Positions 1 through 34,714 of a stretch of 64,000 nucleotides of DNA are shown in pieces. The notes beneath the pieces are model-generated. The model searched no databases. It had not been told where the DNA came from and saw only the letters and a program-made list of their open reading frames with translations. How positions within the stretch are numbered: position 1 is the first letter of the stretch; each line of letters begins with the position of its first letter. Where the stretch lies: the NCBI RefSeq assembly GCF_900184895.1, contig NZ_FXZK01000001.1, forward strand, positions 434,001-498,000, given 5' to 3'. The stretch is from Flavimaricola marinus. Its GTDB lineage: Bacteria > Pseudomonadota > Alphaproteobacteria > Rhodobacterales > Rhodobacteraceae. The position numbers were made by a program, and so were the translations under genes.

Positions 1-754
1 CGTCGACGAGCTCGATCCGCTGCGCCGAGGCGGTTCTCAGCGCCTCGGTCTCTTGCGAGGTGGGTGCGCCGAGGATCCTGACCGCATCCGCGGCGAACAG
101 GTTCGGCATGCCGCCGATCATTCCCGCCCCTCCGGCGACGCGAAGCGCGGGCATGACCCTGTCGTCGCCGGTGAAGATCGCCAGATCCGGGAAGTTGCGG
201 ACCAGCGTCAGCGAATTTTCCAGATCCCCCGTCGAATCCTTGATCCCGACGATCCGGCCCCCGAACCGGTGCAGCAACGCCTCGACCAAGGCGGGCGTAA
301 AGGAAATCCGCGAGAACCGGGGGATGTTATAGAGCACCAGATCGATGTCCGACGCCCCGGAACGGTCGATCATGGCGTCGATGAAGGCCACGATCGCGGG
401 ATCGCCCGGATCGGTGTAGTAGAACGGCGGCAACACCAGCGCCGCCCGACAACCCTGCGCCTCGGCCGCTGCCAACATATCGGCAGCTTCCGTCAGGACC
501 GGCGTCATGATGGCGGGCACTTGGCGGTCGGCGGGAATGCCCGCCGCAATGAGCGCGGCGAGCGCCTCGGCCTTTTCACCGGTCGAGAAGGACGCACCCT
601 CGCCCGTGGTGCCGAACACCGACACGAACGAGCAGCCGTCGCTTAGAACCCGGTCGCAATGCGCCGCCAGCGCGGCGACATTGATTCGGTATGCCGCATC
701 GACCGGCGTCACCGCAGCACAGACGACTCCACTTAGTTCAGCCTTGTTCGACAC
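1..754 (-). CDS. dihydrodipicolinate synthase/N-acetylneuraminate lyase family protein (partial, 3' end off window)
   Basis: Member of the DapA/NanA class I aldolase family, a TIM-barrel enzyme using a Schiff-base lysine on pyruvate or a 2-oxoacid. About 251 codons are visible and the stop lies beyond the left edge. The translation shows the GTTGEG loop (residues 48-53), FYY (111-113), the catalytic Tyr in YNIP (Tyr142) and the Schiff-base Lys in GIKDST (Lys172). I chose the GTG at 754 because TAGGAG lies 6 nt upstream; no ATG fits. It is divergent from a TRAP transporter, so a role in catabolism of an imported sugar acid or amino acid derivative is an inference. The exact substrate (dihydrodipicolinate, sialate, deoxy-sugar acid, hydroxyproline intermediate) cannot be decided from sequence. 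Confidence 0.88.
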   Translation of the reverse strand, partial: MSNKAELSGVVCAAVTPVDAAYRINVAALAAHCDRVLSDGCSFVSVFGTTGEGASFSTGEKAEALAALIAAGIPADRQVPAIMTPVLTEAADMLAAAEAQGCRAALVLPPFYYTDPGDPAIVAFIDAMIDRSGASDIDLVLYNIPRFSRISFTPALVEALLHRFGGRIVGIKDSTGDLENSLTLVRNFPDLAIFTGDDRVMPALRVAGGAGMIGGMPNLFAADAVRILGAPTSQETEALRTASAQRIELVD

Positions 755-774
755 GCGGTTCTCCTACGGCTTTC

Positions 775-791
775 AACTGATACAATCAGTT
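775..791. promoter_or_regulatory. 17-bp palindrome in the dapA-like/dctP divergent promoter region
   Basis: AACTGAT-ACA-ATCAGTT is a perfect 7+7 bp inverted repeat with a 3-nt spacer, 20 bp before the GTG start of the minus-strand aldolase-family gene. Its size suits a dimeric repressor. No regulator gene lies next to it in the window, so the protein that binds is unknown and may lie beyond the left edge. Confidence 0.4.
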
Positions 792-923
792 ATTCGATTA
801 GTGATGCAATCAATGTTTACATCACAGATTGAATGATGCAAGCTCCACCTGTCGAAATTTGGCTATGCAGGGCAAAATCTGCCAAACTGAGTTGCGGCCA
901 ATGACTTGCAAAGGAGGAACTGC

Positions 924-1925
924 ATGTTGACCCGTCGAACAGCGCTCGTTGCGCTATCCACCATTTCAGCCCTGGCGCTCACCGCAGGCGCCGCGCTCGC
1001 GGATGATCCGATCGAAGTGAAATTCACGACGGTTTCGGTCCCCACCGACCTGCACACGCAGGCGATGACGGTGTTCAAGGAGACACTCGACGCGCTGGAA
1101 CCGGACGCGCTGGATATCCAGCTCTACGATTCGGGGTCGCTCTTTGGCCAGAACGGCGACCTTGACGCGCTTCAGCGCGGCAATGCCGAAATGGCCTATG
1201 TGTCGTTCCAGCTTATCGCGGACGCGATCCCGCAGTTTGGCCTTCTGACGGCCGGCTATCTGTTCCAGAACGCCGACCACTACCGGGCCTTCATGGAAAG
1301 CGACATCGGCGCAGAGTTCAAAGACACGGTCCGGGAGGAAATGGGGATCGAGCTTTTGGCCGTCTGCTATCTGGGCACCCGTCAGTTGAACCTGCGCTCG
1401 GCGATGGACATCCAGACCCCCGCCGATCTTGAAGGGCTAAAGCTGCGGATGCCCGGCTCTGATGCGTGGCTGTTCCTTGGCAATGCCCTCGGAGCCAACC
1501 CGACGCCTCTGCCGTTCTCGGAAGTCTACCTCGGCCTGCAGACCGGCACGATCGACGCACAGGACAACCCGCTTCCTACCGTGGACGCCGCGAAGTTCTA
1601 TGAGGTCACCGAACAGATCACCCTGACAAATCACTTGGTCGATGGTCTGCCGATGGCGGTGAACCTGCAAACCTGGGAGCAGCTGAGCGAAGAACAGCGC
1701 GGCCATATGGTCGAGGCCGCTCAGGCCGCTTGCGACTGGAACAACGAGCGCCGCTACGAAGAAGAGGCGCGTCTGGTGTCGTTCTTCGAAGAACAAGGGC
1801 TGACCGTCACCGAACCTGATCTGGATGCGTTCCGCAGCCACGTACAAGAGGTCTACATGACGTCTGACCGTGCCGCGGACTGGCCCGAAGGCTGGGTCGA
1901 AAAGATCAACGCGCTGGCGAACTGA
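924..1925 (+). CDS. dctP: TRAP transporter substrate-binding protein, DctP family
   Basis: Periplasmic solute receptor of a tripartite ATP-independent periplasmic importer. The 333-residue protein starts with a signal peptide (RR near residue 4, hydrophobic stretch, ALA-D cleavage near residue 26). The DctP core follows, including the region with Leu-Arg-Met-Pro-Gly (about 168-172), where the family arginine binds the ligand carboxylate, and GLQTGTIDAQDNP. The ATG at 924 is preceded by AAAGGAGG at ideal spacing; an in-frame ATG at 906 lacks a ribosome site. dctQ and dctM follow directly, making a complete TRAP operon. The substrate is not identifiable; a carboxylated compound is expected from the family. 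Confidence 0.93.
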   Translation: MLTRRTALVALSTISALALTAGAALADDPIEVKFTTVSVPTDLHTQAMTVFKETLDALEPDALDIQLYDSGSLFGQNGDLDALQRGNAEMAYVSFQLIADAIPQFGLLTAGYLFQNADHYRAFMESDIGAEFKDTVREEMGIELLAVCYLGTRQLNLRSAMDIQTPADLEGLKLRMPGSDAWLFLGNALGANPTPLPFSEVYLGLQTGTIDAQDNPLPTVDAAKFYEVTEQITLTNHLVDGLPMAVNLQTWEQLSEEQRGHMVEAAQAACDWNNERRYEEEARLVSFFEEQGLTVTEPDLDAFRSHVQEVYMTSDRAADWPEGWVEKINALAN

Positions 1926-1935
1926 TTGGCGACGA

Positions 1936-2439
1936 ATGCCTAGCAACTCTAGGACAACGGGAGCCAGTGTTCTGATCTGGCTCAAGAGGGGCGCCGATGC
2001 AGTCGGCGTCCTGCTCTTTCTCGCCGCCTTCAGCGGTTTCATCATTCAGGTGTTCTGGCGCTATGTGCTGAACGATCCGCTGGCCTGGACCGAAGAAGTG
2101 GTGATGATCTGCTTCATCTGGACGGTGTTCTGGGCCGCCGCCTTCATGGTTCCGGTGCGCGAGCATGTGTCGTTCGACGTCGTCTACGATGTCGTCGGAG
2201 CACAGACCAAGCGCAGCTTTACCGCCATATCGCTGTCGGCCATCGTCGTCGCCTTTGTCTGGCTGGTTCCCTACACGTGGGACTATCTCGATTTCCTGAC
2301 GCGCAAGAAATCCCCGGTGCTACGGATACAGATGCACTGGATCTACGGCTGCTACATCCTGTTCGTCGCCGCCTTCGCGGCCCAATCGGCCTGGCGTCTG
2401 GCTCAACTCTTCCGCCCCAACTGGCGCGACCAACTGTAA
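1936..2439 (+). CDS. dctQ: TRAP transporter small permease, DctQ family
   Basis: Small four-helix membrane subunit (167 aa) that couples the binding protein to the large permease. Hydrophobic segments lie near residues 18-38, 56-72, 88-108 and 128-150, and the typical 'WRYVLNDPLAWTEEV' stretch of the DctQ family is present. I took the ATG at 1936, 10 bp after the dctP stop; upstream in-frame codons overlap dctP and code for an Arg-rich shadow. It lies between dctP and dctM in the usual order. Confidence 0.9.
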   Translation: MPSNSRTTGASVLIWLKRGADAVGVLLFLAAFSGFIIQVFWRYVLNDPLAWTEEVVMICFIWTVFWAAAFMVPVREHVSFDVVYDVVGAQTKRSFTAISLSAIVVAFVWLVPYTWDYLDFLTRKKSPVLRIQMHWIYGCYILFVAAFAAQSAWRLAQLFRPNWRDQL

Positions 2440-2455
2440 GGATAGGCCCGGTCCG

Positions 2456-3754
2456 ATGATCGCCTCCATCGCATTTCCGCTGATGATCGCCATTCTGGTC
2501 ATCACGACGGTCATGGGGATGCCGCTCGGCATTTCGATGATCGTGTCCTCCATCTTTTACCTGATTATGAGCGGCCGCGACGTGGGCCTTGCCGCCGAAA
2601 TGGTGCTCAACGGCGTCTTCGGCAACTTTGTCGCGCTGGCGGTGCCGCTGTTCATCTTTGCGGCCAACATCATGAACGCGTCAAAGATCTCGGACAGGCT
2701 GCTCAACTTTGCGCTCGCGATGGTGGGCCGATTGCCGGGCGGGTTGGCGCAGGTCAATATCTTTACCAGCCTCCTGTTTTCGGGGATGAGCGGGAGCGCG
2801 GTGTCCGACGTCGCCGGCGTCGGCAAGATCCTGACCAACATGATGACCGAGGGCGACCGGTATCCCCGTGGATTTGCAGGCGCGGTCACGGCCACCTCCT
2901 CGGTCGTCGGGCCGATCTTTCCGCCTTCTATCCCGATGGTATTCTATGCGCTGATCTCGTCCACCTCTGTCGGAGCGCTGTTTCTGGGTGGCGTCGTCCC
3001 GGCGCTGATGGTCGTCGTCACGCTGGGGATCGTCGTGGGCATCGCCGCCAAGATGCGCGGATTTCCCATCGAAAAGGCGGTCCCGCTGCGCCTGATCCCA
3101 ATCATCATCCTGCGCGCCATCCCGCCCCTGATGATGCCTGTGATCCTGTTGGGCGGCATCTACACCGGAGCCTTCACCCCGACCGAAGCTGCGGCGGTTT
3201 CGGCCTTCTACGCGCTGCTTTTGGCGGTCTTTGCCTACCGCTCCATCGGCCTCGCCGAGTTCTTTGAGGTGGTCCATTCCACGGTCAAGACGACGGCGGT
3301 CGTGACCATCGTTCTATGCGGCGCGTTCATCTTCAACTACGTCGTCACCATCGAACGCATTCCGCAGTCCGTCTTTCTGTTCTTTGACCAGTTCGAGCTG
3401 AACACGGTCATGTTTTTTCTGATGATCAACCTGCTGTATCTCGTGCTTGGGTGCTTTCTCGACGTGTCGACGATCATGCTCGTCATCACGCCGCTGTTCA
3501 TCCCCACCGCTGCCGCTCTGGGGATCGATCTGCACCACTTTGGCATCGTCATCGTCTTTAACATGATGATCGGGCTCATCACTCCGCCCTATGGGATATT
3601 GCTGTTTATCATCAAGGCGCTGAACGGGATTCCATTGGGCGAGATGATCCGCGAGATCTGGCTGTTCATCGGGGTGCTGATCGCATTGCTGATGATCATC
3701 ACCTATGTGCCTTCGCTCAGCCTTTGGCTGCCGAGGTTTGCCGGCTTGCTTTGA
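2456..3754 (+). CDS. dctM: TRAP transporter large permease, DctM family
   Basis: The 432-residue large membrane subunit of the TRAP importer, which carries solute using a sodium or proton gradient. It is hydrophobic throughout with about a dozen predicted helices. Family signatures include LFIFAANIMN (about 64-73), the SGMSGSAVSD loop (about 110-119) and GLITPPYG near the C-terminus (about 373-380). It begins 16 bp after dctQ. The next gene (kinase) is convergent, and I saw no clear terminator in the 165 bp between them. Confidence 0.93.
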   Translation: MIASIAFPLMIAILVITTVMGMPLGISMIVSSIFYLIMSGRDVGLAAEMVLNGVFGNFVALAVPLFIFAANIMNASKISDRLLNFALAMVGRLPGGLAQVNIFTSLLFSGMSGSAVSDVAGVGKILTNMMTEGDRYPRGFAGAVTATSSVVGPIFPPSIPMVFYALISSTSVGALFLGGVVPALMVVVTLGIVVGIAAKMRGFPIEKAVPLRLIPIIILRAIPPLMMPVILLGGIYTGAFTPTEAAAVSAFYALLLAVFAYRSIGLAEFFEVVHSTVKTTAVVTIVLCGAFIFNYVVTIERIPQSVFLFFDQFELNTVMFFLMINLLYLVLGCFLDVSTIMLVITPLFIPTAAALGIDLHHFGIVIVFNMMIGLITPPYGILLFIIKALNGIPLGEMIREIWLFIGVLIALLMIITYVPSLSLWLPRFAGLL

Positions 3755-3919
3755 CGGCCTTTCATCTTAAACGCGGTCAGGGCCGTGTTCATGACGGCAC
3801 CTGCCCGTTGGGACGGCCCGACAAGCGTGTCCTTGCTGCATGATACCGTTGGCCTACACACAAACGCTGTGCGTCGGTTCTTCGGCCAATCTGGCGGGCG
3901 CCGCTTGCGGGCAGCGCCG

Positions 3920-4783
3920 TTACACCCCGCCCGCCACGTGGCGTGCTGCGGACAGGTTCGCGGCCCGCACGGCCTCTGCATAGCTCGATCCTTGCGTGAG
4001 AGTGCCGATCAGGACGCCGATGAAATGGTCCCCCGCGCCGTGGGTCGAGACAACGTCGACTTTCTCGCCCGGAACGACGCCCGCCGCGTCGCCGGCGTGA
4101 TAGGCAACACCGCTGCCGCCTGCCGTGACGATGGCGCATTCAAATCGCGCGGCCAGAGCCTTGGCCGCCTCCGCAGCCGCAGGCAGGCTGTCGACCGTTG
4201 CGCCGCACATGGCCTGGGCCTCGATCGAGTTGACGACGACGATATCGACGAGGTCCAGAAAGGTTTCGCTCATCTCGCGCCACGGGGCCGCATTCAAACA
4301 GACGGCCACCCCCCTTTGGCGGGCCATCTGCGCCGCGGCGATGTTCACCGGCTCGGGGATTTCGTTCTGTAGGACGAGATAGCGGGCGTCTTGCCAAAGC
4401 GCGTCGTCCGAAAGGCCCTGCGGGTCGATCTGCAGATTTGCCCCCGACACGATAACCGCGCCGTAATCGCCACTGGCATCGCTGATGGCGACGCTCATGC
4501 CGGTCCCTGCCCCGGCGATCCGGGCGATGTGACCGGTCTGGACCCCGGTTTGCCCAAGGTGGGCCAGCGTGAATGCCGCAAAGTCGTCCTGCCCAACGGC
4601 CGACACCAGACGAGTCGGGCTTCCGCTCCGCGCCGCCGAGACGGCCTGATTGCCGCCCTTGCCGCCGAACTTGGGATGCCAGGATTGGCCGGTGACCGTC
4701 TCGCCCGCTGCCGGTCGGTGCGGCGCGTTCACGAATATGTCGTAGTGGATCGAGCCGACGACGACGATGGCGGGCGAGGTCAT
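3920..4783 (-). CDS. ribokinase-like PfkB family carbohydrate kinase
   Basis: A 287-residue ATP-dependent sugar kinase and the last gene of the minus-strand sugar operon. It shows the N-terminal PfkB glycine motif (GGKGGNQAVSAAR, about 40-52) and the C-terminal anion-hole/catalytic-base motif, here GAGDHF, where most ribokinases have GAGDT/S/A-F; the aspartate is kept. Start: GTG (4792) abuts the regulator stop, but AGGTG lies 6 nt upstream of the ATG at 4783, which I prefer. Its operon position suggests it phosphorylates the imported or isomerised sugar. Ribose, another pentose or a ketohexose are all possible. Confidence 0.88.
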   Translation of the reverse strand: MTSPAIVVVGSIHYDIFVNAPHRPAAGETVTGQSWHPKFGGKGGNQAVSAARSGSPTRLVSAVGQDDFAAFTLAHLGQTGVQTGHIARIAGAGTGMSVAISDASGDYGAVIVSGANLQIDPQGLSDDALWQDARYLVLQNEIPEPVNIAAAQMARQRGVAVCLNAAPWREMSETFLDLVDIVVVNSIEAQAMCGATVDSLPAAAEAAKALAARFECAIVTAGGSGVAYHAGDAAGVVPGEKVDVVSTHGAGDHFIGVLIGTLTQGSSYAEAVRAANLSAARHVAGGV

Positions 4784-4792
4784 GGCAGGCAC

Positions 4793-5656
4793 CTATGGCT
4801 TTCGTTTGGCATCGACGGATTGCATCGTCTTGGACAATTGCGTTTCGGCCAAGGCGAAATCGCGCTGTGCCACACCGACGAAGACCGCGTCCATGATGCT
4901 GAGCTGCGCAATCCGCGCCGCCGCATTCTCGCCCAGCAAGGGCGAGCCCTGCGCGGTCGAACACAGGGTCACGTCGGCCAGCTCGGCCAGTGGCGAACCG
5001 GCGTAGTTGGTCAGCGCGATGCTGCGGGCTCCGTTCTGACGGGCCAGCGTGACCGCCTCGATCACCGCCATGGTCGAACCGGAATGCGAGACCGCGACGA
5101 CGACATCGTCGGGGCCGAGCAACGAGGCGGACATCATCATCATGTGAGTGTCGTCGTAGATGTTGCTGCGCAGTCCGATCCGGAGGAACTTGTGCGACAC
5201 GTCGCGGGCGATCTGGGCGGAACCGCCCAAGCCGTAGAAGTCGCGATTGCGTGCGGCATAGAGCAGGTCGGCCGCACGATCGAACGCGGCCATGTCTAGG
5301 ATCGACATGGTTTCCTCGATCGCCTGCATCGCGGTGTTGAAGACCTTCTTGACGATGTCGGCCGAACTGTCCTCGGGCGAGATCTCCGCATGCAGCGATG
5401 CCACGTCGGATTCGCGGTAGGACACCAGCGCTGCCCGAAAATCGCGATAGCCGTTGAACCCGAGCTTCTTGGCGATCTTGACCACCATCGCATCCGAGAC
5501 ACCGGCATCGTCGGCCACTTCGCGGATCGAGGTCGTCAGGTCGAGGTCCTTGCGGCCAGTGATGGTATTGACCACCCGCGCCTCGAGCGGCGTCATCAGC
5601 GGCATCCGCATCCGAACCTGAGCACCAACAGTCCGCGGGTCGATATTCACATTCAT
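4793..5656 (-). CDS. MurR/RpiR family transcriptional regulator (HTH-SIS)
   Basis: A 287-residue regulator with an N-terminal RpiR helix-turn-helix (about 20-90, 'SIREVADDAGVSDAMVVKIAKKLGF') and a C-terminal SIS sugar-phosphate isomerase fold (about 120-260, 'GLGGSAQIARD' and 'SHSGSTMAVIEA'). Such proteins sense phosphosugars. It overlaps the permease stop by 4 bp (ATGA) and is followed with no gap by the kinase, so it is probably an autoregulated local controller of the sugar operon. Its operator was not identified. Confidence 0.9.
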   Translation of the reverse strand: MNVNIDPRTVGAQVRMRMPLMTPLEARVVNTITGRKDLDLTTSIREVADDAGVSDAMVVKIAKKLGFNGYRDFRAALVSYRESDVASLHAEISPEDSSADIVKKVFNTAMQAIEETMSILDMAAFDRAADLLYAARNRDFYGLGGSAQIARDVSHKFLRIGLRSNIYDDTHMMMMSASLLGPDDVVVAVSHSGSTMAVIEAVTLARQNGARSIALTNYAGSPLAELADVTLCSTAQGSPLLGENAAARIAQLSIMDAVFVGVAQRDFALAETQLSKTMQSVDAKRKP

Positions 5657-6633
5657 CCTTTTCCCCGGGTGGCCCGGTCAATCAGCATCGCGACGATGAT
5701 GATAATACCGGTGGCGAGAAGTTGATAGAACGCTTGAACGTTCATCAGGGTCAGCCCGTTGCGCAGCGATCCCAGAATAACGGCGCCAAGAAGCGTGCCG
5801 ATCACCGACCCCTTTCCGCCCATCAGGGATGCCCCGCCGATGGCGGCTGCGGCGATGGCGTCGAGCTCCCACAGATTGCCCATGGTCGGATCGGCCGCCC
5901 CCAACCGTCCCATGAGGATCATCGAGGCCAGGGCCGCCAGCCCCCCTGAGAGCATGTAGACCGTGATCTTGGTCCGGGCGACCGGAACACCGGCGATCCG
6001 GGCGGCTTCGGGATTGCCGCCAACCGCGAGGATGTATTCCCCCAGCGGGCTTCGGTTCAGCACGATCCACAGGATCGCGGCGACGACGGCGACGATTACC
6101 ACCGGCACCGGAATGCCAGCCAGATCGCCGTTGATGAAGGACCGGAACTCCGGCGGTATGCCAAAGATCGGGTTCCCGCCGGTAAAGATCAGCGACAGGG
6201 CGCGATACAGCGACAGGCCTCCGAGCGTCACGATGAAGGGCTGCAACCCGGCATAGGCAATCAGCGCACCGTTGAAAAAGCCACAAAGCATCCCAGCCCC
6301 GAGGGCGGCGAGCAAGGCCAGCGGCAGCGGCACCCCCGCCACCATCAGGCTCGCCCCGGCGACGGCCGATAGCGCAGCGGTCGGGCCGACAGACAGGTCG
6401 ATGCCGCCAGAAATGATGACGAAGGTCATCCCCAGCGCGATGCAGGCATTGATCGACGATTGCTGCAGGATGTTGAGCAGATTGGGAGCGGTCAGAAAGA
6501 CCGGGCTCAGCACTCCGAAGACGACGAAGATGAGGATCAGGCCCAGGAGGGTGCCCGCATCGCGCAGGTTGAAGGCGGCCGGCAGAAGGCTCTTGAGGCC
6601 GCGCGCCCGGGCGATATCGGTCTGGTCAGTCAT
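5653..6633 (-). CDS. sugar ABC transporter permease, RbsC type
   Basis: A 326-residue inner-membrane permease of the BPD_transp_2 (ribose/xylose/galactose) family. It has eight to ten hydrophobic segments and the family signature 'GGIDLSVGPTAALSAV' near residues 73-88. It overlaps the upstream ATPase by 8 bp and the downstream regulator by 4 bp, showing translational coupling. With the ATPase and binding protein it forms a complete CUT2 importer. Confidence 0.92.
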   Translation of the reverse strand: MTDQTDIARARGLKSLLPAAFNLRDAGTLLGLILIFVVFGVLSPVFLTAPNLLNILQQSSINACIALGMTFVIISGGIDLSVGPTAALSAVAGASLMVAGVPLPLALLAALGAGMLCGFFNGALIAYAGLQPFIVTLGGLSLYRALSLIFTGGNPIFGIPPEFRSFINGDLAGIPVPVVIVAVVAAILWIVLNRSPLGEYILAVGGNPEAARIAGVPVARTKITVYMLSGGLAALASMILMGRLGAADPTMGNLWELDAIAAAAIGGASLMGGKGSVIGTLLGAVILGSLRNGLTLMNVQAFYQLLATGIIIIVAMLIDRATRGKG

Positions 6634-8173
6634 GATGGGCCTCTTGCGGCTGTGGCGGCTCTTGCGGAGCCCGCGCTTTGGATTGGGGAATGGCGTGGGC
6701 GGCGATCCGGCCTTCGGTGATCTCGTCGCCGGACAAGGTCGCGGCGATCCGGCCCTCGCGCATCACAACGACGCGGTCGGACACGCGCAGGATTTCCGTC
6801 ATCTCGGAGCTGACGACGACGATCGCCTTGCCCGCCGCTGCCAGCGTCTCGATCAGCTCGTAAATCTCGGATTTCGCACCGATATCGATGCCCCGCGTCG
6901 GCTCGTCGAACAGCAGGATATCGACGTCGGCGGCCAGCCAGCGGCCGATGATCGCCTTTTGCTGATTGCCGCCTGAGAACAGGCCGATCGCGCGATCTAC
7001 GTCCGGCGGGCGCAGGTGCATCTGCTCCATCAGTGCGGTCGCTTCCTTGCGAAGCGCCTTTCTGCGGATCAGTCCGAAGGACGAAAAGGTCTCCATGCAG
7101 GGCAAGGCGATATTCGATGCAACGCTGCGATCACGGACGATGCCGTCCTTCTTGCGTTCTTCGGGAACGAGGCCGATCCCGGCGTGGATCGCGTCACGAG
7201 GGGAGCGGAAATGGCAGGTCCTCCCGTCCTTGACGATGGTGCCGGTGGAGGCCCGGTCGATGCCCGCCACGAGGCGCAGCATCTCGGTGCGGCCGGAGCC
7301 GACGAGGCCGGCGACGCCAAGCACCTCGCCCTTGTGCAAGGTGAAGCCGGCACCCGAAATCAGCCGACCGTCACCCAGATCAGAGACCGACAAGGCGACC
7401 TCATCGGTGGCGTGGCTGACGTGCCCCTCGGTCTGAACATCCCGGCCGACCATCCGGGCGATGATCTCGGCTTCGCTGGTCTCGGCGATCGTCACGGTCG
7501 TCACGAAACGGCCGTCGCGCAAGACGGTGGCGCGGTCGCAGACCCGGAACACCTCGTTCATCTTGTGCGAGACATAGATGATCGATTTGCCCTGCCCCGC
7601 GAGCTTTTCAATGAGCGCGGCAAGGTTGTCGAATTCGGGCGGAGTCAGCGACGATGTCGGTTCATCCATCGCGATGATGCGGGCGTCATCGAGCAACGCG
7701 CGGGCGATCTCGACGATCTGCTGCTGAGCGACCTTCAGCTCCGACACAGGGCGGGACGGCTCGATCGCGGGATCGAGGTCTGCCAGGATGGCGCGGGCGC
7801 GGGCCTCTTGCGCGCGGCGGTCGACGAGCAGCCCACCGGCCTTGGAAAGCGGCCGCCCCAGAAAGATGTTCTGCGCGACGGTCAGGGCCGGGATCAGCTG
7901 CAATTCCTGATGGATCATCGCGATGCCTGCGGCGCGGGCGCTCTTAGGGTCCGTCAGGTTGACGGGGGTGCCGTCGATGAGGATGCGCCCGGCATTCGCG
8001 GCAAAGACCGCCGACAGGATATTGAGCATCGTCGATTTGCCGGCACCGTTCTCTCCAAGAAGGCCGTGAACCTCGCCGGGCATGACGGAGAAGGACACGT
8101 CGTCGAGGGCCTTGATGCCGGGAAAGCTCTTCTGGATGCCCTCCAGACGCAAGCGTGCAGTTGCCTCTGCCAC
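6626..8173 (-). CDS. sugar ABC transporter ATP-binding protein, RbsA type (two nucleotide-binding domains)
   Basis: A 515-residue CUT2-family ATPase with two tandem ABC domains. Domain 1 has Walker A GENGAGKS (about 40-47) and Walker B IIAMDEPTSSL. Domain 2 has the degenerate P-loop GLVGSGRTE typical of RbsA, signature LFSGGNQQKA and Walker B ILLFDEPTRGID. It energises the RbsC-type permease encoded just downstream (8 bp overlap). A 10-bp hairpin separates it from the binding-protein gene. Confidence 0.93.
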   Translation of the reverse strand: MAEATARLRLEGIQKSFPGIKALDDVSFSVMPGEVHGLLGENGAGKSTMLNILSAVFAANAGRILIDGTPVNLTDPKSARAAGIAMIHQELQLIPALTVAQNIFLGRPLSKAGGLLVDRRAQEARARAILADLDPAIEPSRPVSELKVAQQQIVEIARALLDDARIIAMDEPTSSLTPPEFDNLAALIEKLAGQGKSIIYVSHKMNEVFRVCDRATVLRDGRFVTTVTIAETSEAEIIARMVGRDVQTEGHVSHATDEVALSVSDLGDGRLISGAGFTLHKGEVLGVAGLVGSGRTEMLRLVAGIDRASTGTIVKDGRTCHFRSPRDAIHAGIGLVPEERKKDGIVRDRSVASNIALPCMETFSSFGLIRRKALRKEATALMEQMHLRPPDVDRAIGLFSGGNQQKAIIGRWLAADVDILLFDEPTRGIDIGAKSEIYELIETLAAAGKAIVVVSSEMTEILRVSDRVVVMREGRIAATLSGDEITEGRIAAHAIPQSKARAPQEPPQPQEAHHD

Positions 8174-8204
8174 GGTCGATCCTCCCCTGTTGGTTTGCGA
8201 AAGT

Positions 8205-8233
8205 GGAGCGCCGCGATAGCTCTGCGGCGCTCC
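8205..8233. promoter_or_regulatory. intercistronic hairpin between binding-protein and ATPase genes
   Basis: GGAGCGCCGC and GCGGCGCTCC form a perfect 10-bp stem around a 9-nt loop, in the 74-bp gap after the stop of the binding-protein gene and before the ATPase start (minus strand). There is no T-tract, so it is more likely an mRNA-stabilising or attenuating element than a full terminator. Such elements commonly raise binding protein over membrane components. Confidence 0.55.
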
Positions 8234-8247
8234 GGATCGGGCTCAGA

Positions 8248-9300
8248 TCACTCGGCCAGCAGAGTGGCGCGCAGCGCGGCGGTGTCTTCGACGGCATAGG
8301 CGTCGATATTGTCTGCGGTGATCAGGGCTTGCGGCGTGGCGACGACGCGGGGCAGATCCTGCCCGGCCAGCAAGCGCAGCGCGACCTCCATCGCGACCTC
8401 TCCGGTCAGAACCGGAAAGCTGTCGACAGTGCCGGTCAGGTCACCGGCCCGGATCGACGCATAGGCGTCCGAGATCCCGTCCGTGCCGAACACGGCGACC
8501 TGATCGGCCAGACCGGCGGCCTTGACCGCCTCGACAACGCCCAGCGCCATGCCGTCGTTGTTGGCATAGAAACCGATCAGATCCGGGTGTTGCTGCAGGA
8601 TTGTCGATGCCGCGTCGTAGGCGGTCTCGCGGCTCCAGTTCGCCGGAATGCTGGCAACGACCTCGAAATCTCCGCCAGCCTCGATGGTGGCGGTGAAGCC
8701 ATCGGTGCGCTGCCCTGCGGCGAACACGCCCGGCTGCCCTTCGATCACCGCGACCTTGCCACCCTCGGCATTGTCAATGAACCATTGAGCGACCCGCACG
8801 CCGTTGTCGCGCTGCACGTTGCCCACATATTGCGCGACCGATGGGATCACGGCGTCATTGACGTTGACGACGACCATGCCCTCGGACAGGGCGCTCTCAA
8901 GCGCCGGTTGCAGGTTGTTGTCGGTCTGCGGCGACATGAGCAACGCGTCATAGCCTTGCAGGATCATGTTTTCCGCGATGGACAACTGACCAAGCTGATC
9001 GCCCTCGCTGGGGGCGGCCTGATAGGCAAAGCCGACGTTGCTCGCGTCGGCGGCAGACTGATAACCGATGCCGAGCGAGCGCCAGTATTCGTTGGTCAGG
9101 GTCTTGGACACGCCACCCACGCGGGTGCCGTCGGCCGGTGTCGGCATGGGGCCAAAGCTGGCCTCGAGCTGCGACCAGTCGATCCGGTCGGGTTCGACGT
9201 CGGAGTTGAGCGGCGCGAGGTCCTGCGCGGCGGCAAGGTTGGCCGTCGCCGCCATCAGGCCGGCCACCAGCATGGATCTCAAAGGTGTCGGGTAGTTCAT
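8248..9300 (-). CDS. sugar ABC transporter substrate-binding protein (RbsB/Peripla_BP_4 type)
   Basis: A 350-residue periplasmic receptor. Signal peptide at residues 1-25 (LVAGLMAATANLAAAQD), then a periplasmic binding protein type 1 fold with 'QGYDALLMSPQTDNNLQPAL' and 'YANNDGMALGVVEAVK', the usual sugar-contacting segments. GGGAGGAG precedes the ATG. It lies between the isomerase and the ATPase genes. Ligand unknown; the family binds ribose, xylose, allose and similar sugars. Confidence 0.92.
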   Translation of the reverse strand: MNYPTPLRSMLVAGLMAATANLAAAQDLAPLNSDVEPDRIDWSQLEASFGPMPTPADGTRVGGVSKTLTNEYWRSLGIGYQSAADASNVGFAYQAAPSEGDQLGQLSIAENMILQGYDALLMSPQTDNNLQPALESALSEGMVVVNVNDAVIPSVAQYVGNVQRDNGVRVAQWFIDNAEGGKVAVIEGQPGVFAAGQRTDGFTATIEAGGDFEVVASIPANWSRETAYDAASTILQQHPDLIGFYANNDGMALGVVEAVKAAGLADQVAVFGTDGISDAYASIRAGDLTGTVDSFPVLTGEVAMEVALRLLAGQDLPRVVATPQALITADNIDAYAVEDTAALRATLLAE

Positions 9301-9343
9301 TGGGTCTCCTCCCTTTATGAATTGATGTCTGAGTTGTAAAGTT

Positions 9344-10321
9344 TCAGCGTCCGGCCATCAGGCGCTGGACGATGCGCTGGGACAGCGGTGAATTCTGCTC
9401 GCCGATGGCGCTGCGCAGCTCGTTACTGGCTTCGGCCTGTGCCGCGATGGCGATCAGGCGCTCGGCCATTTCGATGTTGGCCGCGCATTCCTCGACCGGG
9501 TCTATGCCCGAGGCATCGGGGAAGGTGTCGAAGTAGATCACCCCGTCATACCCGTCCCGCGTGATCTGCGTCAGCAGCTCCAGCGTCGCGAGCGGATGCA
9601 CGGAGCCCACCATGAGCCCATCGTCACGCTTGCCGTAGCCGTCGTTGAGATGCACCCCGAGCAGGCGGGACCGCCGCGCAACCTGTGCCGCCGCAAAGGC
9701 GGGCATCTCGTCGGCATACAGCACATGGGCGAAATCCAGCGTGACGCCGAGATTGCCAAGGCCGACCTCGTCGATCGCCAGAAGCGTCGTCGCCACGTCC
9801 GGCAAAAGTGCGAATGATCTCGGCTCGTTAGGCTTGTATTCAATCGAAATCAGACATTCGGGAGCATGCGCCGCGACCTCGCGGATGCCGTCGATCTCGT
9901 CGGCCCACATCTTGGCGTAGTCGCCCTGAAAGCTGTAGTCGAAGCCGTCCTGCCCGAGCCACAGCGTCATCAGCGGCGCGCCCATCTCCAGCGCGGCATC
10001 AATGCCCTGCCTGGTCAGGTCGATCGCCTCACGACGGACAACGGGATCAGGATGCGTAAAGGCCCCGAGCTTGAATCCGGGGTTGGTATAATACCGCATG
10101 GCGAGGCCGTTGATCTGCAACCCCATGTCGTTGATCTCGGCGCGCACGGCCTTTGGCTCGTCGGTCATGTGATCGGGGTAGTTGAGGTCGACGTGGGTCA
10201 AGCCCTCGACCTTCGAGGCCCGCCGCGCGGCCATCATGGGTGTCGGCTTGCCATTGTGGTCCGGCCATTCGGCCTCGGCCTTCGCCGCAAAGGAATTCAA
10301 TCGTGTCGCAAACCGTATCAT
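9344..10321 (-). CDS. sugar isomerase/epimerase, xylose isomerase-like TIM barrel
   Basis: A 325-residue AP_endonuc_2/xylose-isomerase-like enzyme. Putative metal and acid residues sit in ISIEYKPNEPRSF (Glu/Lys of beta strand 5), TLDFAHVLYAD (Asp, His), LGVHLNDGYG (His, Asp) and YFDTFP. The pattern resembles L-rhamnose isomerase/ketose 3-epimerase relatives rather than endonucleases. It is the first gene of the six-gene sugar operon (43 bp before the binding protein), so it probably interconverts the imported sugar before phosphorylation. Exact reaction unknown. Confidence 0.82.
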   Translation of the reverse strand: MIRFATRLNSFAAKAEAEWPDHNGKPTPMMAARRASKVEGLTHVDLNYPDHMTDEPKAVRAEINDMGLQINGLAMRYYTNPGFKLGAFTHPDPVVRREAIDLTRQGIDAALEMGAPLMTLWLGQDGFDYSFQGDYAKMWADEIDGIREVAAHAPECLISIEYKPNEPRSFALLPDVATTLLAIDEVGLGNLGVTLDFAHVLYADEMPAFAAAQVARRSRLLGVHLNDGYGKRDDGLMVGSVHPLATLELLTQITRDGYDGVIYFDTFPDASGIDPVEECAANIEMAERLIAIAAQAEASNELRSAIGEQNSPLSQRIVQRLMAGR

Positions 10322-15518: not shown

Positions 15519-16943
15519 TTATGGCACCGCCAACGCCTTCGCTGCGACGAGGTCTCGGGTCAGGGCCTGCCGAGCGGCCTCTTGGTCGGCCCGCTCGGGC
15601 AGCCGCAGAATATGCGCGGGATGATAGGTGATCAGGGCCGGCACGCCGCCGAGGCCCGGCTCTGTCCTGCCCCGCCGCGCCGCAATTGCATCCTTGCGCC
15701 CGGTCAGCGCGAGCGCGGCCGTCGCCCCCAGCGCCACGATGATCTGCGGCTTGACCTGCCTGATCTCGGTGTCGAGCCAGAAGCGACAATGCTCGACCTC
15801 GTGTCGATCCGGCGTCTGGTGGATCCGGCGTTTGCCCCGCACCTCATGTTTGAAGTGCTTGACCGCGTTCGTCAGATAGACCGCGTCGCGCTGCAATCCT
15901 GCCTGCTGCATGGCGTGAAGCAGGACTTGGCCCGCCGGCCCGACGAAGGGGCGGCCCTCGAGATCCTCGCGGTCGCCCGGCTGCTCTCCGACGACCATGA
16001 TGCCCGCTTGTTCCGGCCCCTCTCCCGCAACGACCTGCGTCGCCTGACAATGCAGCGGACAGCGTTGGCACCCCGCCAAAGCAGCGGCAAGCCCGCTTGA
16101 CGGCCCGTCCCAATAGGTGCCGCGCGTGGCCGCGCTCTGCACCCGGGCGGTGCGCAGCGGCGGCAAGGTGGGGGCGGCCTCGGCCATCGCCCGCGCCCGG
16201 GCCGGAGCCTCGGATATCAGGCGCGGGATCGACGCCGCTTCGGGCAGGTTCTTCCAGTATTTCTTCGGCATCTCCGAGGTCATCGCATTCACCTTCAACC
16301 GGGCCGGATTGAAGATATTGCAGAAATAGGTGGTCCAGAGATCCTCGTGGGCGTCCTCCAGCAACTCCGGCTTCGGCATATCCAGGGCAAAGCGAAGCGC
16401 ACCGGCTTCGAATATCGCCGTGACATCGGGGGTCACGATCCGCCAATCCATATCCGCGAACCGTTTGGAAAAGAAAGTCGCCGTGGGTTCGACGGTGTGG
16501 TGCGTCGGCTCGAACCACGCGGCAAAGCTGCGCCGGGCGGCCTCCGGGTCTCCGATCTCGCGAAACCGGACGAACGCCTTCATCTTGTGCTGGCAGCGAT
16601 GGACGGCCTTCTCCATTTCCCGCAGCGATTGCACCAGCGGATCGGCACGGTCCTGCATCAGGCCGCGTTCCCGTTGCAGCCGGTGCAGACACGCATAGAG
16701 CTTGTCAAAACGGCGCTGGTCGGCATGCCAGACCACGGATTGCGCCAGTGAAACGAAGGATTTCGGCACCTTGATCTGGCTGGCATCCACCTTGGGCGGC
16801 TGGATGACCTCGTCAAACAGGCCGCCGGCCGCCTCCTGCCCGAAGGTCACATCCTCCGGCGAGAGGCCTGCGGCAAGGCAGGCACGGGCGGCGTCTCGCC
16901 ATGCCTTGTCCACCCCGAGGCGCGGCAGGACGATCCGTTGCAT
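15519..16943 (-). CDS. udgX: DUF4130-UdgX fusion: uracil-DNA glycosylase superfamily protein
   Basis: A 474-residue two-domain protein. Residues about 1-245 form the DUF4130 (TIGR03915) domain of unknown function. Residues about 270-474 form a UDG-superfamily domain of UdgX type: GEQPGDRED (319-327), TNAVKHFK (358-365), KRRIHQTP (371-378) and the C-terminal ITYHPAHILR. In UdgX the His of KRRIH (here His375) forms a covalent bond to the deoxyribose after uracil excision, so the protein is expected to bind uracil-DNA irreversibly. Cysteines 292, 295, 299 and 386 are candidate 4Fe-4S ligands. The start overlaps the radical SAM stop (TGATG), so the two are coupled. Confidence 0.92.
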   Translation of the reverse strand: MQRIVLPRLGVDKAWRDAARACLAAGLSPEDVTFGQEAAGGLFDEVIQPPKVDASQIKVPKSFVSLAQSVVWHADQRRFDKLYACLHRLQRERGLMQDRADPLVQSLREMEKAVHRCQHKMKAFVRFREIGDPEAARRSFAAWFEPTHHTVEPTATFFSKRFADMDWRIVTPDVTAIFEAGALRFALDMPKPELLEDAHEDLWTTYFCNIFNPARLKVNAMTSEMPKKYWKNLPEAASIPRLISEAPARARAMAEAAPTLPPLRTARVQSAATRGTYWDGPSSGLAAALAGCQRCPLHCQATQVVAGEGPEQAGIMVVGEQPGDREDLEGRPFVGPAGQVLLHAMQQAGLQRDAVYLTNAVKHFKHEVRGKRRIHQTPDRHEVEHCRFWLDTEIRQVKPQIIVALGATAALALTGRKDAIAARRGRTEPGLGGVPALITYHPAHILRLPERADQEAARQALTRDLVAAKALAVP

Positions 16944-18178
16944 CAGAACAGGCTCAACTGCTCGGGTGGCGGCGCGAACCGCGCTCGCAGGTCGGCGCTA
17001 TCCGTCAACCCGCCGGGAGACCAGCCTTGGGCGGTGATGAACACCCGCGCCTTCTTCAGCGACGCTCCGAGGCGGGCGACGTCTTCATAGCGCAAGGTCC
17101 GGTGACGGCGGGTCGCGATGATCCGATTGACGGTCTTCACCCCGAAACCCGGCACCCTGAGAAGCATCTCGCGCGGGGCCGAGTTGACATCGACCGGAAA
17201 GCCCTCGCGATGTGCCAGGGCCCAGGCGAGTTTCGGGTCGATCTCCAGATCGAGGTTGCCGCCCAGCGCCGTGTCGGTGATCTCGTCCAGCCGGAAGTCG
17301 TAGAACCGCAACAGCCAATCGGCCTGATAAAGCCGATGCTCTCGCTGCAGCGGCGGGCTGACGAGGGGCAGCCGCGAGGAGGCGTCGGGGATCGGGCTGA
17401 AGGCGGAATAATAGACCCGTTTGAGGCCGTAAGAGCCGTAGAGCCGTGTGGACTGACCAAGAATGGTGGCGTCATTCGCGCCGTCCGCACCGACGATCAC
17501 CTGCGTCGACTGGCCCGCGGGCGCAAAGCGTGGCGGGCGCTTGCCGCTGTGGGATCTGTCCTTGCTGGCGATGCTGCGCAGCTTCACGTCCGCCATCGCC
17601 TTGCGGATCTGGTCGGGGCTTTTCTCGGGCGCATAGTCCTTGACCGCCTGATCGGTCGGCAGTTCGACATTGATCGACAGCCGATCCGCGAGCCGCCCCG
17701 CTTCTGCGATCAGTTCAGGGGCAGCATCCGGGATGGTCTTGAGGTGGATATAGCCGCGGAAATTCTCCTCCTCGCGCAGTTTGCGGGCGATCCGGACCAT
17801 ATCCTCCATCGTCTTGTCGGGCGAACGGATGATCCCCGACGACAGGAACAGGCCTTCGATGTAGTTGCGGCGATAGAAATCGATCGTCAGCTTCACCACC
17901 TCGTCGACGGAGAACCGCACCCGCTCCACGTTGGAGGACACCCGATTGACGCAATAGACGCAGTCGTAGATGCAGAAATTGGTCATCAGGATCTTGAGCA
18001 AGCTGATGCAACGCCCGTCAGGTGCGTAGGAATGACAAATGCCGGAACCGGTGTTCGATCCCAGACCCTTGCCGTCGCGTGAATCCCGCTTGGTCGACCC
18101 CGACGATGCGCAGGAGGCATCGTATTTGGCCGCATCGCTCAAGATCGCGAGCTTTTCGTTGATTGTTCTTTGCGCCAT
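16943..18178 (-). CDS. putative DNA modification/repair radical SAM protein (TIGR03916 type)
   Basis: A 411-residue radical SAM enzyme. The cluster motif is Cys69-X3-Cys73-X2-Cys76 (NFCIYDCVYC). Further cysteines at 23, 48 and 57 near the N-terminus could hold an extra cluster. The C-terminal third contains helix-hairpin-helix-like DNA-binding sequence (NSAPREMLLRVPGFGVKTVN). The family is found next to DUF4130/UdgX genes and is named a putative DNA modification/repair protein; no reaction is established. It is the first gene of the run, with udgX overlapping its stop by 1 nt, and is divergent from the 50-residue protein and topoisomerase genes. Confidence 0.9.
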   Translation of the reverse strand: MAQRTINEKLAILSDAAKYDASCASSGSTKRDSRDGKGLGSNTGSGICHSYAPDGRCISLLKILMTNFCIYDCVYCVNRVSSNVERVRFSVDEVVKLTIDFYRRNYIEGLFLSSGIIRSPDKTMEDMVRIARKLREEENFRGYIHLKTIPDAAPELIAEAGRLADRLSINVELPTDQAVKDYAPEKSPDQIRKAMADVKLRSIASKDRSHSGKRPPRFAPAGQSTQVIVGADGANDATILGQSTRLYGSYGLKRVYYSAFSPIPDASSRLPLVSPPLQREHRLYQADWLLRFYDFRLDEITDTALGGNLDLEIDPKLAWALAHREGFPVDVNSAPREMLLRVPGFGVKTVNRIIATRRHRTLRYEDVARLGASLKKARVFITAQGWSPGGLTDSADLRARFAPPPEQLSLF

Positions 18179-18388
18179 GCGTTCTTGTTATGTTCTCATT
18201 AACCCCAGTGCAACCGAACAGTTTGTCGCGGCCCCGCCCGCGGTGCGTTCCGTGGCGTCGGGTGGCAGATTCTCGCCAAGGCGCGGAACTCTTGGGGCCG
18301 GCGAAAGGTTTGCAAGACAGGATCTGCTGCCCTGCCCCGCCCAATCGGGTGAGAGCATAGGGCGGAGAAACGACGAAAGGACTACACC

Positions 18389-18604: not shown

Positions 18605-18820
18605 ATGAGTGACATTCGCGAAGGCGACACAGTGGAGTGGGATTGGGGGAACGGCACTGGCACCGGGACGGTGCAGTCGGTTTTTGCCCATGAAACCACC
18701 CGCAAGATCAAGGGGTCCGAGGTCACCCGCAAAGGCTCCAAGGACGACCCTGCCCTGTATATCAAACAGGATGACGGTGACGCGGTTCTGAAACTGGCGT
18801 CCGAGGTCGAGCGCAAATGA
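18605..18820 (+). CDS. DUF2945 / hypervirulence-associated TUDOR-domain protein
   Basis: A 71-residue protein matching the DUF2945 family: DTVEWDWGNGTGTGTV, then ITRKIKG-like HETTRKIKGSEVTR and DDPALYIKQDDGDAVLKLASEV. The fold is Tudor/SH3-like and the function is unknown. AAAGGTGA precedes the ATG at 18605. Its stop overlaps the topoisomerase IB start (ATGA), so the two are made together, which hints at a nucleic-acid-related task. Confidence 0.85.
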   Translation: MSDIREGDTVEWDWGNGTGTGTVQSVFAHETTRKIKGSEVTRKGSKDDPALYIKQDDGDAVLKLASEVERK

Positions 18821-19779
18821 CGCCCGGTCTGGTCTATGTCTCCGACACGGACCCCGGCATCTCGCGGCGCCGCTGCGGCCGCGGCTTCACCTATATCGCG
18901 CCCGACGGCACCACCATCGCCAGAGGGCCGGAGCGCAAGCGGATCGAGGCTCTCGCCGTTCCGCCCGCCTATGAAGGCGTGTGGATATGTCCGATCGAAA
19001 TCGGTCACATTCAGGCCACCGGCCGCGACGCCCGCAACAGAAAGCAATACCGGTATCACCCTGACTGGTCCGCCGCTCAGGCAGAGACCAAGTTCCAGCA
19101 TCTGCTCGAGTTCGGTGCCGCCCTCCCGGCGATACGCCGCCGTGTCGACAGGGATATCGCCTCGCCGCCCGGTGACGAGGAATTCGCCCTCGCCGCCGCC
19201 ATCATGCTGATCGACCGGACCTCGCTGCGGGTCGGCAATACCAGTTCCGCCCGCGAGAACGGCAGCTATGGCGCATTGACCCTGAAGCGGCGGCATCTGA
19301 GGCTGTCCAAGGACGGGATCAGGCTCAACTTTACCGCCAAGAGCGGCAAGAAGGTGCGCCAGAACATCACCGACCGCAAACTGCAGAAACTGCTGCACAA
19401 GGTCAGCGACCTGTCGGGCGCGACGCTCCTGTCCTGGACCGACGACGAAGGCGTCAGCCACTCCGTCTCCTCGCAGAAACTCAATGCCTATCTCTCCGAT
19501 GCCGCGGGCGACGCGGATATAACGGCGAAGTCATTCCGCACCTGGGCCGGAACGCTTGCGGCCTTTGAATGCGCGGAAAAGGGCGGGGCGAGCATCAGCG
19601 ACATGGCGCAATCCGCCGCCCAGCGCCTGCACAACACCCCGACCGTCGCGCGGAACAGCTATATTCACCCCGCCGTTATCGAACTGGCAGACGCGGAGAC
19701 CGTCATGATCAAACCCGAGAAGATCAGTGGCCTGCTTGCTGCCGAGCAACGTCTCATGGGGTATCTGGCGACCACCTAG
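18817..19779 (+). CDS. DNA topoisomerase IB (poxvirus-like)
   Basis: A 320-residue bacterial type IB topoisomerase that relaxes supercoils through a 3'-phosphotyrosyl intermediate. The active-site Tyr is Tyr282 (ARNSYIHP). Catalytic arginines appear at Arg138 (SLRVGN) and Arg241 (SFRTWAGT), with a lysine in the LKRRH block (about 156-160). An N-terminal DNA-clamp domain covers about residues 20-95. It overlaps DUF2945 by 4 bp. Confidence 0.93.
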   Translation: MTPGLVYVSDTDPGISRRRCGRGFTYIAPDGTTIARGPERKRIEALAVPPAYEGVWICPIEIGHIQATGRDARNRKQYRYHPDWSAAQAETKFQHLLEFGAALPAIRRRVDRDIASPPGDEEFALAAAIMLIDRTSLRVGNTSSARENGSYGALTLKRRHLRLSKDGIRLNFTAKSGKKVRQNITDRKLQKLLHKVSDLSGATLLSWTDDEGVSHSVSSQKLNAYLSDAAGDADITAKSFRTWAGTLAAFECAEKGGASISDMAQSAAQRLHNTPTVARNSYIHPAVIELADAETVMIKPEKISGLLAAEQRLMGYLATT

Positions 19780-33255: not shown

Positions 33256-34518
33256 ATGACCAGACCCACGCTTACTGCAACGGCCATCGCATTGGCGCTC
33301 GCCACGCCCGCCTTTGCCGTCGAGCCCGCCGAGGTCCTCGAAACCTACGCCGACATCGCCGCCGCCAACTACGAGGACAGCCTGATTACGGCGCAGCGGT
33401 TGCAGGCCGCGGTCGATGCATTGGTTTCAGAGCCGTCCGCAGAGGCGCTTTCCGCCGCCCGCGCCGCATGGCTGGCCGCCCGCGTGCCCTATCAGCAGAC
33501 CGAAGTCTTTCGCTTTGGCAATGCCATCGTCGACGACTGGGAGGGCAAGGTGAACGCCTGGCCGCTGGACGAGGGGCTGATCGACTATGTCGACGCCTCC
33601 TATGGCGGGCCGTCGGATGAAAACGCCTTCGCCACGCTCAACGTGATCGCGACTCCGATCCTGACGTTGTCGGGCCAAGAGATCGACGCAACCGAGATCA
33701 CTCCGGCCCTGCTGCAAGACACCCTGCACGAAGCCGACGGCGTCGAGGCCAACGTCGCCACCGGCTACCATGCCATCGAGTTCCTGCTCTGGGGGCAAGA
33801 CCTGAACCGGCACGCGGCCGGTGCCGGAAACCGGCCATGGACCGACTACGCCGCCGGTGAAGACTGCACCAACGGCAACTGTGATCGCCGCGCCGCCTAT
33901 CTGACGGCGGCCACCGAACTGCTGGTCTCGGATCTCGAAGACATGACCGCGGCCTGGGCCGATGGCGGCGCGGCGCGGTCCGACCTCATGGCCGATCAGA
34001 GCGCCGGGATCTCGGCCATTCTGACCGGCATGGGATCGCTGTCCTACGGTGAAACCGCCGGCGAGCGGATGCGCCTCGGCGTCATGCTCAACGATCCCGA
34101 GGAAGAGCATTCCTGCTTTGCCGACAACACCCATAACGATCACTTCTACAACAGCGTCGGCATTCAGAACGTTTATCGGGGCGAATACATCCGGGTCGAT
34201 GGCAGCGTCGTGACCGGACCGTCCCTGTCCGACCTCGTGGCCGAGACCGACGCGGCGCTCGACGCCGAAATGCAAGGCAAGCTCAGCGATGCGGTCATGG
34301 CGTTGGGTCGGATCAAGATCGCCGCCGAAGCCGGGTTTGCCTATGATCAGATGCTGGAGCGCGGCAATGCCGCCGGCGAAGCACTCATCATGGGCGGCGT
34401 GAACGGGTTGATCGACCAGACCCGCTCGATCGAGCGAGTGATCGCGGCGCTGGGCGTCGAAGGGGTCGGGATCGAAGGGTCTGACAGCCTCGACGATCCG
34501 AACGCCGTGTTTCAATAA
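33256..34518 (+). CDS. imelysin family protein (IrpA-like)
   Basis: A 420-residue periplasmic protein with signal peptide about residues 1-21 (LTATAIALALATPAFAVE). It carries the imelysin GxHxxE signature as GYHAIEFLLWGQ (about 171-182) and the paired-repeat helical layout of the M75 family. The family includes iron-regulated IrpA; despite the name, proteolysis is doubtful for most members and an iron-linked role is favoured. It is followed after 196 bp by the di-heme oxidoreductase gene. Confidence 0.92.
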   Translation: MTRPTLTATAIALALATPAFAVEPAEVLETYADIAAANYEDSLITAQRLQAAVDALVSEPSAEALSAARAAWLAARVPYQQTEVFRFGNAIVDDWEGKVNAWPLDEGLIDYVDASYGGPSDENAFATLNVIATPILTLSGQEIDATEITPALLQDTLHEADGVEANVATGYHAIEFLLWGQDLNRHAAGAGNRPWTDYAAGEDCTNGNCDRRAAYLTAATELLVSDLEDMTAAWADGGAARSDLMADQSAGISAILTGMGSLSYGETAGERMRLGVMLNDPEEEHSCFADNTHNDHFYNSVGIQNVYRGEYIRVDGSVVTGPSLSDLVAETDAALDAEMQGKLSDAVMALGRIKIAAEAGFAYDQMLERGNAAGEALIMGGVNGLIDQTRSIERVIAALGVEGVGIEGSDSLDDPNAVFQ

Positions 34519-34714
34519 ACTCACCGGGCTGGCCGGGCTGATCGCATGATTTTCAGCCCCGGTCAGCCCAAGTGGAAACATGCACCAGAGCCGCCCGCAA
34601 GGCGAGACGTCCCTACTCCCGCCTTGCGCATAGACCTGCCGGCTGAGACCATCACCTCGGCATGGCACAGACCTGCCGCCGCAGCGCCCCTACGGCCAAG
34701 CGCGATGAGGACCC

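Follow-up and report, generated by a model that had tools for sequence, protein, structure and literature searches.

A putative SOS-induced radical SAM-DUF4130 gene pair with a dispensable UdgX domain in Flavimaricola marinus

We analyzed a stretch of 64,000 nucleotides from Flavimaricola marinus (contig NZ_FXZK01000001.1, positions 434,001 to 498,000), called the window below, whose numbering is used for all features of this strain. Two adjacent genes on its minus strand encode a radical S-adenosylmethionine (SAM) protein of the TIGR03916/COG4277 type (16943-18178, 411 amino acids) and a fusion of a DUF4130 domain with a uracil-DNA glycosylase (UDG) domain of the UdgX type (15519-16943, 474 amino acids). 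The best reading of our data, to which we assign a probability of about 60%, is that the locus encodes an SOS-induced pair for the processing of DNA lesions, with the radical SAM protein and DUF4130 as its core and UdgX as an optional, uracil-capturing addition. Together, the two core proteins make up a genuine, conserved functional unit that very probably acts on DNA.

The locus is a typical alphaproteobacterial copy of a widespread, biochemically uncharacterised gene pair, and the pairing itself, its link to UDGs and its SOS control have already been published. The association of DUF4130 with radical SAM proteins and UDGs dates back to a publication of 2013 (PMC3765255), and the linkage is recorded in the NCBIfam names rSAM_link_UDG (TIGR03916) and SAM_7_link_chp (TIGR03915). 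The COG4277-COG1573 operon shows no essential difference from the locus studied here, as the same families above their cut-offs, the gene order, the fusion and the reported SOS control (PMC8565304) are common to both. The novelty claimed in an initial annotation of this DNA, which was made from the sequence alone, was therefore overstated. New in the present analysis are the quantified dispensability of UdgX, the conservation of the LexA box across classes despite a change of its motif, and the proximity of the pair to imuB-dnaE2.

Conservation of the radical SAM-DUF4130 pair

The start codon of the fusion gene overlaps the stop codon of the upstream radical SAM gene by one base, the A of TGATG at position 16943, and the minus-strand junction reads ...CTGTTCTGATGCAACGG; this overlap had been recognized in the initial annotation. 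The radical SAM protein matched TIGR03916 over its full length with 580.1 bits (curated cut-off 343.5) and Pfam Radical_SAM with 46 bits, and it adjoins a TIGR03915 gene, as expected of this family. The N-terminal DUF4130 domain of the fusion protein (residues 13-236, 16236-16907, minus strand) scored 189.9 bits with TIGR03915 (cut-off 112.25) and 127 bits with Pfam DUF4130 (cut-off 27). In the alignment, DUF4130 has a near-invariant polar set composed of Y83, H119, R126, E145, R161, D197, W203, Y206, N212, R215, W230 and E235, among which H119, R126, E145, R161, N212, R215 and E235 are typical of an active site or a nucleic-acid pocket.

The initial annotation had suggested a survey of gene neighbourhoods, and this survey placed the co-occurrence of the two families far above chance. 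Among 349 genomes of Pseudomonadota, TIGR03916 was found above its cut-off in 70, which is about a fifth of the sample. In all 70 of these genomes, DUF4130 lay at most 3.1 kb away on the same contig and strand, nearly always with no more than about 100 bp between the profile ends. In a separate set of 80 loci with the radical SAM protein, which were fetched independently from GTDB genomes, the DUF4130 gene was located directly downstream of the radical SAM gene in every case. Fisher's test on the genome counts, which are uncorrected for phylogeny, gave p ~2e-69 for the co-occurrence; since this value ignores phylogeny, the side-by-side count is the stronger argument for the pairing. Pairwise distances of the radical SAM proteins correlated with those of DUF4130 with a Spearman coefficient of 0.69 and with those of UdgX with 0.53. 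A Bacteroides control genome also contained the radical SAM and DUF4130 families and had no UdgX match.

Most of the recurrent neighbour clusters consisted of ordinary local genes or antisense reading frames; those of interest were imuB/dnaE2 and, in one family, hemerythrin. In this family, labelled f6 (L and G numbers below denote loci and genomes), a hemerythrin (HHE) gene lies between the radical SAM and DUF4130 genes of three loci (L133, 5222-5770, minus strand; L098; L099), and L098 and L099 contain additional inserted genes. In a plasmid collection, 158 records with the radical SAM gene were found, many of them from Phaeobacter, Leisingera, Paracoccus and Sulfitobacter and mostly predicted to be non-mobilizable.

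Two other readings of the pair were rejected. A role in anti-phage defence was dismissed as no PADLOC family matched at E ≤ 0.01. A viral origin was dismissed as well; only two IMG/VR loci were found, and two phage records were judged to show bacterial or probably host DNA. One record of the phage collection (L142, CAKLQH020000003.1), named 'Acinetobacter phage MD-2021a', carries the pair between glyS/glyQ, aroE, hemF and dxs and looks like a mislabelled contig of a bacterial chromosome. In another record (L143, PQ571268.1), Bacteroides phage BKO1-TP1, a DUF4130 stretch (45-563) is located at the very end of the record and is probably host flank; this record also holds a transposase and a Mor-type activator.

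UdgX as an optional domain

The C-terminal UdgX domain of the fusion protein (residues 239-466, 15546-16229, minus strand) scored 296 bits with TIGR03914 (cut-off 190), and Pfam UDG was matched in the fusion protein as well. It resembles UdgX of Mycobacterium smegmatis (PDB 6ail, 6ajo) by sequence (E ~1e-47) and by fold (TM-score 0.84-0.94, normalised to the target), with 46-47% identity in the Foldseek alignments. Motif A, GEQPG (residues 319-323, 15975-15989, minus strand), is common to both proteins and was present in 98 of 101 fused domains. The same is true for the KRRIH loop (residues 371-375, followed by QTP; 15819-15833, minus strand), whose predicted cross-linking residue His375 corresponds to H109, the cross-linking histidine of M. 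smegmatis UdgX (PMC10359453). The catalytic His and Glu of UdgX were kept in 116 of 118 aligned domains. Motif B of the F. marinus domain reads HPAHILR (residues 441-447) and not HPS(S/A)(L/V)(L/V)R. The two proteins further differ in that the F. marinus domain is fused to DUF4130 and encoded in an apparent SOS operon; its cross-linking activity is predicted from the sequence. With both TIGR03915 and TIGR03914 above their cut-offs and the catalytic loop intact, the DUF4130-UdgX fusion with KRRIHQTP given in the initial annotation was confirmed.

UdgX was absent from some of the pairs. In 16 of the 70 genomes with the pair, DUF4130 carried no UdgX domain and no UdgX match above the family cut-off was found elsewhere in the genome; G194, in which the gene is cut by a contig end, was left out of this count. 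Likewise, seven of the 80 GTDB loci (L010, L013, L022, L031, L049, L068 and L075) contained a complete DUF4130 gene ending before the UdgX part. In a phylogeny of 121 radical SAM proteins, the distribution of UdgX required 11 changes, of which at least nine were forced by well supported branches. Conversely, UdgX occurred without the pair in 11 of the 349 genomes. The existence of the pair without UdgX and of UdgX without the pair indicates that the radical SAM protein and DUF4130 are interdependent and that UdgX is autonomous. UdgX is thus a dispensable extra of the pair and not its core. L105 (G071) lacks the radical SAM gene and retains just the final portion of DUF4130, ahead of an intact UdgX. 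In L129 (G155; 2315-4825 and 4059-4724) a frameshift or an assembly error divides the UdgX part between two reading frames, and the pair is otherwise complete.

These counts bear directly on the model of the initial annotation, in which the radical SAM enzyme and DUF4130 may act on the covalent UdgX-DNA adduct, or on a modified base that UdgX recognizes, by processing or releasing it. The fusion of DUF4130 and UdgX in most alphaproteobacterial members and the intact cross-linking histidine speak for such a role, but the model fits poorly because the pair thrives without UdgX, with the domain gained or lost at least nine times on the tree. Moreover, UdgX persists without the pair, and the SOS box described below tracks DUF4130 and the radical SAM gene rather than solo UdgX. 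Processing or release of the adduct as the core function is therefore not supported, and we consider this model highly improbable.

SOS control and proximity to mutasome genes

A clue absent from the initial annotation is a LexA (SOS) box upstream of the radical SAM gene. The sequence GAACATAACAAGAAC (18181-18195, minus strand), which spans -17 to -3 relative to the start codon, is an exact match to GTTC-N7-GTTC, the LexA motif of Alphaproteobacteria (PMC8565304). Of 81 distinct alphaproteobacterial loci (from 82 rows, one locus being listed twice), 79 had an exact box within 200 bp upstream of the pair, mostly at exactly -17, compared to 12 of 1640 shuffled sequences and 35 of 1640 random windows. 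Of 42 further loci, 20 had the alphaproteobacterial type of box. The other 22, mostly from other classes, were searched for the gamma- and betaproteobacterial type, CTGT-N8-ACAG, which was present exactly in 14 and with one mismatch in five (shuffled sequences: 2 of 660 exact). The presence of a box of either type in most loci across classes suggests that LexA control was kept although the LexA motif changed. Loci lacking UdgX also carried a box, whereas none of 13 solo UdgX genes had an exact box of either type. The pair is thus apparently under LexA control, as far as can be judged from the promoter regions. The homologous COG1573-COG4277 operon is SOS-controlled in Bacteroidetes and was described as a putative base-excision-repair unit (PMC8565304); according to reports cited in that article, SOS control also occurs in Verrucomicrobia and Alphaproteobacteria (Caulobacter).

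A box was also found upstream of DUF4130 genes lacking a radical SAM neighbour (L102-L104 and L106). L106 (G322:C5:278022-279416) is an additional, divergent copy of DUF4130-UdgX preceded by a CTGT-N8-ACAG box of its own, and its genome also has a normal pair and a solo UdgX. L103 lacks UdgX in addition to the radical SAM gene, and the last conserved residues are changed in L102 and L103.

The pair was further associated with genes of the ImuA-ImuB-DnaE2 mutasome, with which it has LexA control in common. The dnaE2 gene was present in 63 of 70 pair-positive and 84 of 279 pair-negative genomes; within the Alphaproteobacteria, the numbers were 46 of 48 and 45 of 63, respectively (p = 9e-4, uncorrected for phylogeny). 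In nine genomes, a distance of about 2-2.5 kb separated dnaE2 from the radical SAM gene. Four genera of family f6 have the pair immediately upstream of dnaE2 and in the same orientation (L123 in G087, 556-9689; L127 in G131; L129 in G155; G250:C1:951132-957314), and there it is apparently part of the imuB-dnaE2 mutasome cassette. In L123, the order on a single strand is imuB, radical SAM gene, DUF4130-UdgX and dnaE2, the first two being 1.2 kb apart. In L060, L122 and L125, the pair is divergent from imuB-dnaE2. The pair differs from the mutasome in that it contains no polymerase component, and in F. marinus dnaE2 is located on another contig (G000:C28), where a LexA-type box precedes it by 2.9 kb.

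LexA control and the association with dnaE2 and imuB would also agree with a function in mutagenesis, in which the pair modifies normal or damaged bases, e.g., thymines, during the SOS response and feeds error-prone polymerases, while UdgX handles uracil-like products in some lineages. DUF4130 was in fact put forward as an enzyme linked to mutagenesis that is associated with SplB-like radical SAM proteins and UDGs and 'might modify thymines' (PMC3765255). However, LexA control and mutasome linkage are equally compatible with repair, the modification of bases is hypothetical, and members that are not fused to UdgX lack a glycosylase domain that could act on a product. We therefore regard a mutagenesis enzyme as unlikely.

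Elsewhere in the window, a bacterial topoisomerase IB gene (18817-19779, plus strand) is located upstream of the pair and transcribed away from it, and an Imelysin (Peptidase_M75) gene is followed by a co-directional gene for a di-haem oxidoreductase (33256-36292, plus strand).

The radical SAM protein and a possible reaction

The radical SAM protein contains the CX3CX2C cluster motif noted in the initial annotation, in the form of CIYDCVYC (residues 69-76, 17951-17974, minus strand), and its three cysteines C69, C73 and C76 were kept in all 124 aligned sequences. N-terminal to this motif are C23, C48, which is followed by H49, and C57 (18008-18112, minus strand). C48, H49 and C57 were conserved in 124 of 124 and C23 in 123 of 124 proteins, the only exception being L029, whose fetched open reading frame is truncated. 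The protein holds exactly six cysteines, all of them conserved. The three extra N-terminal cysteines are arranged in a way that resembles lipoyl synthase and MiaB with their auxiliary cluster, and C23, C48 and C57 are candidate ligands of a second iron-sulfur cluster or metal site. In the structural model, the region of C23 and C48 had a predicted local distance difference test score below 50 (residues 23-34 and 41-50). The best 50 PDB matches of the fold search comprised biotin synthase, HydG/HydE, MiaB, viperin, lipoyl synthase and others, all of them broad matches with a TM-score of 0.30-0.43 of the query. A radical SAM match in random-barcode transposon sequencing (RB-TnSeq) metal data of Pseudomonas stutzeri was discarded as it is NirJ and not a member of the TIGR03916 family.

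The initial annotation had also mentioned a helix-hairpin-helix DNA-binding sequence. Such a similarity exists at residues ~323-380, but it is weak by itself, with PDB chains of ComEA and RuvA matched at E 0.04-0.08 in the profile search. The helix-hairpin-helix-like segment VDVNSAPREMLLRVPGFGVKTVNRIIATRRH (residues 329-359, 17102-17194, minus strand) has helices predicted at 336-339 and 347-357.

A radical SAM fold with a DNA-binding-like segment, under the apparent control of DNA damage, recalls spore photoproduct lyase (SplB), a radical SAM enzyme of DNA repair; radical SAM chemistry on DNA is likewise expected of the protein studied here. The pair might accordingly perform direct reversal, with the radical SAM protein restoring a crosslinked or saturated base and DUF4130 serving in lesion recognition. 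The radical SAM proteins associated with DUF4130 were called SplB-like in the literature (PMC3765255), and splB is SOS-controlled in several species (PMC8565304). Yet the F. marinus protein falls outside SplB by family model, as the NCBIfam search at E ≤ 0.001 matched TIGR03916 only, and by fold, as no spore photoproduct lyase was among the best 50 matches. In addition, it has an obligate DUF4130 partner and the three extra invariant cysteines N-terminal to the cluster motif. To our knowledge, spore photoproduct lyase has no extra N-terminal cysteines in such an arrangement. Direct reversal of this kind appears unlikely.

For the preferred reading of an SOS-induced lesion-processing pair, we propose the following sequence of events. 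RecA filaments would trigger the cleavage of LexA, which would leave the box overlapping the start of the operon, so that both proteins would be made together and might form a complex. The radical SAM protein would bind damaged DNA, probably via its C-terminal helix-hairpin-helix-like segment. The target of its 5'-deoxyadenosyl radical would be either a damaged base or a damaged bond between sugar and base, and this target would probably lie within single-stranded DNA or close to it. The obligate partner DUF4130 would provide a pocket for the lesion or catalyse a second step. Where UdgX is fused, it may covalently capture uracil sites in the same DNA and thereby shield the abasic site while ImuB/DnaE2 carry out error-prone synthesis. 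A more specific version is possible but doubtful: the radical SAM protein might be a two-cluster enzyme, with the second iron-sulfur or metal site formed by C23, C48, possibly H49, and C57, which together with DUF4130 as co-catalyst acts at SOS gaps and chemically edits a lesion there for ImuB/DnaE2.

Several points weigh against the preferred reading. The tight co-occurrence of the pair across genomes carries no correction for phylogeny, and the linkage to the mutasome is limited to a few families. A sequence profile search of DUF4130 against the PDB found no relative, and the two fold searches with the model of the fusion protein returned UDG matches throughout. GTTC-N7-GTTC is not enriched genome-wide in F. 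marinus (120 occurrences versus 142 for the reversed control), so that a single box match is not evidence by itself; the evidence lies in its conservation and position. Finally, L102 (G217), L103 (G287) and L104 (G200) keep a LexA-boxed DUF4130 without the radical SAM gene next to imuB, so that DUF4130 may act alone, or these genes may be decaying.

The phenotype to look for is survival and mutagenesis under SOS conditions and not a response to uracil alone. The dispensability of UdgX, LexA control across classes and the adjacency to dnaE2 guide the choice of constructs, such as natural DUF4130 proteins with and without UdgX, and of the residues to mutate. A two-cluster radical enzyme, if it exists, would represent a DNA-repair or DNA-editing reaction unlike that of spore photoproduct lyase, carried out by a conserved and apparently SOS-controlled pair that spans about one fifth of the sampled Pseudomonadota and the Bacteroides control genome.

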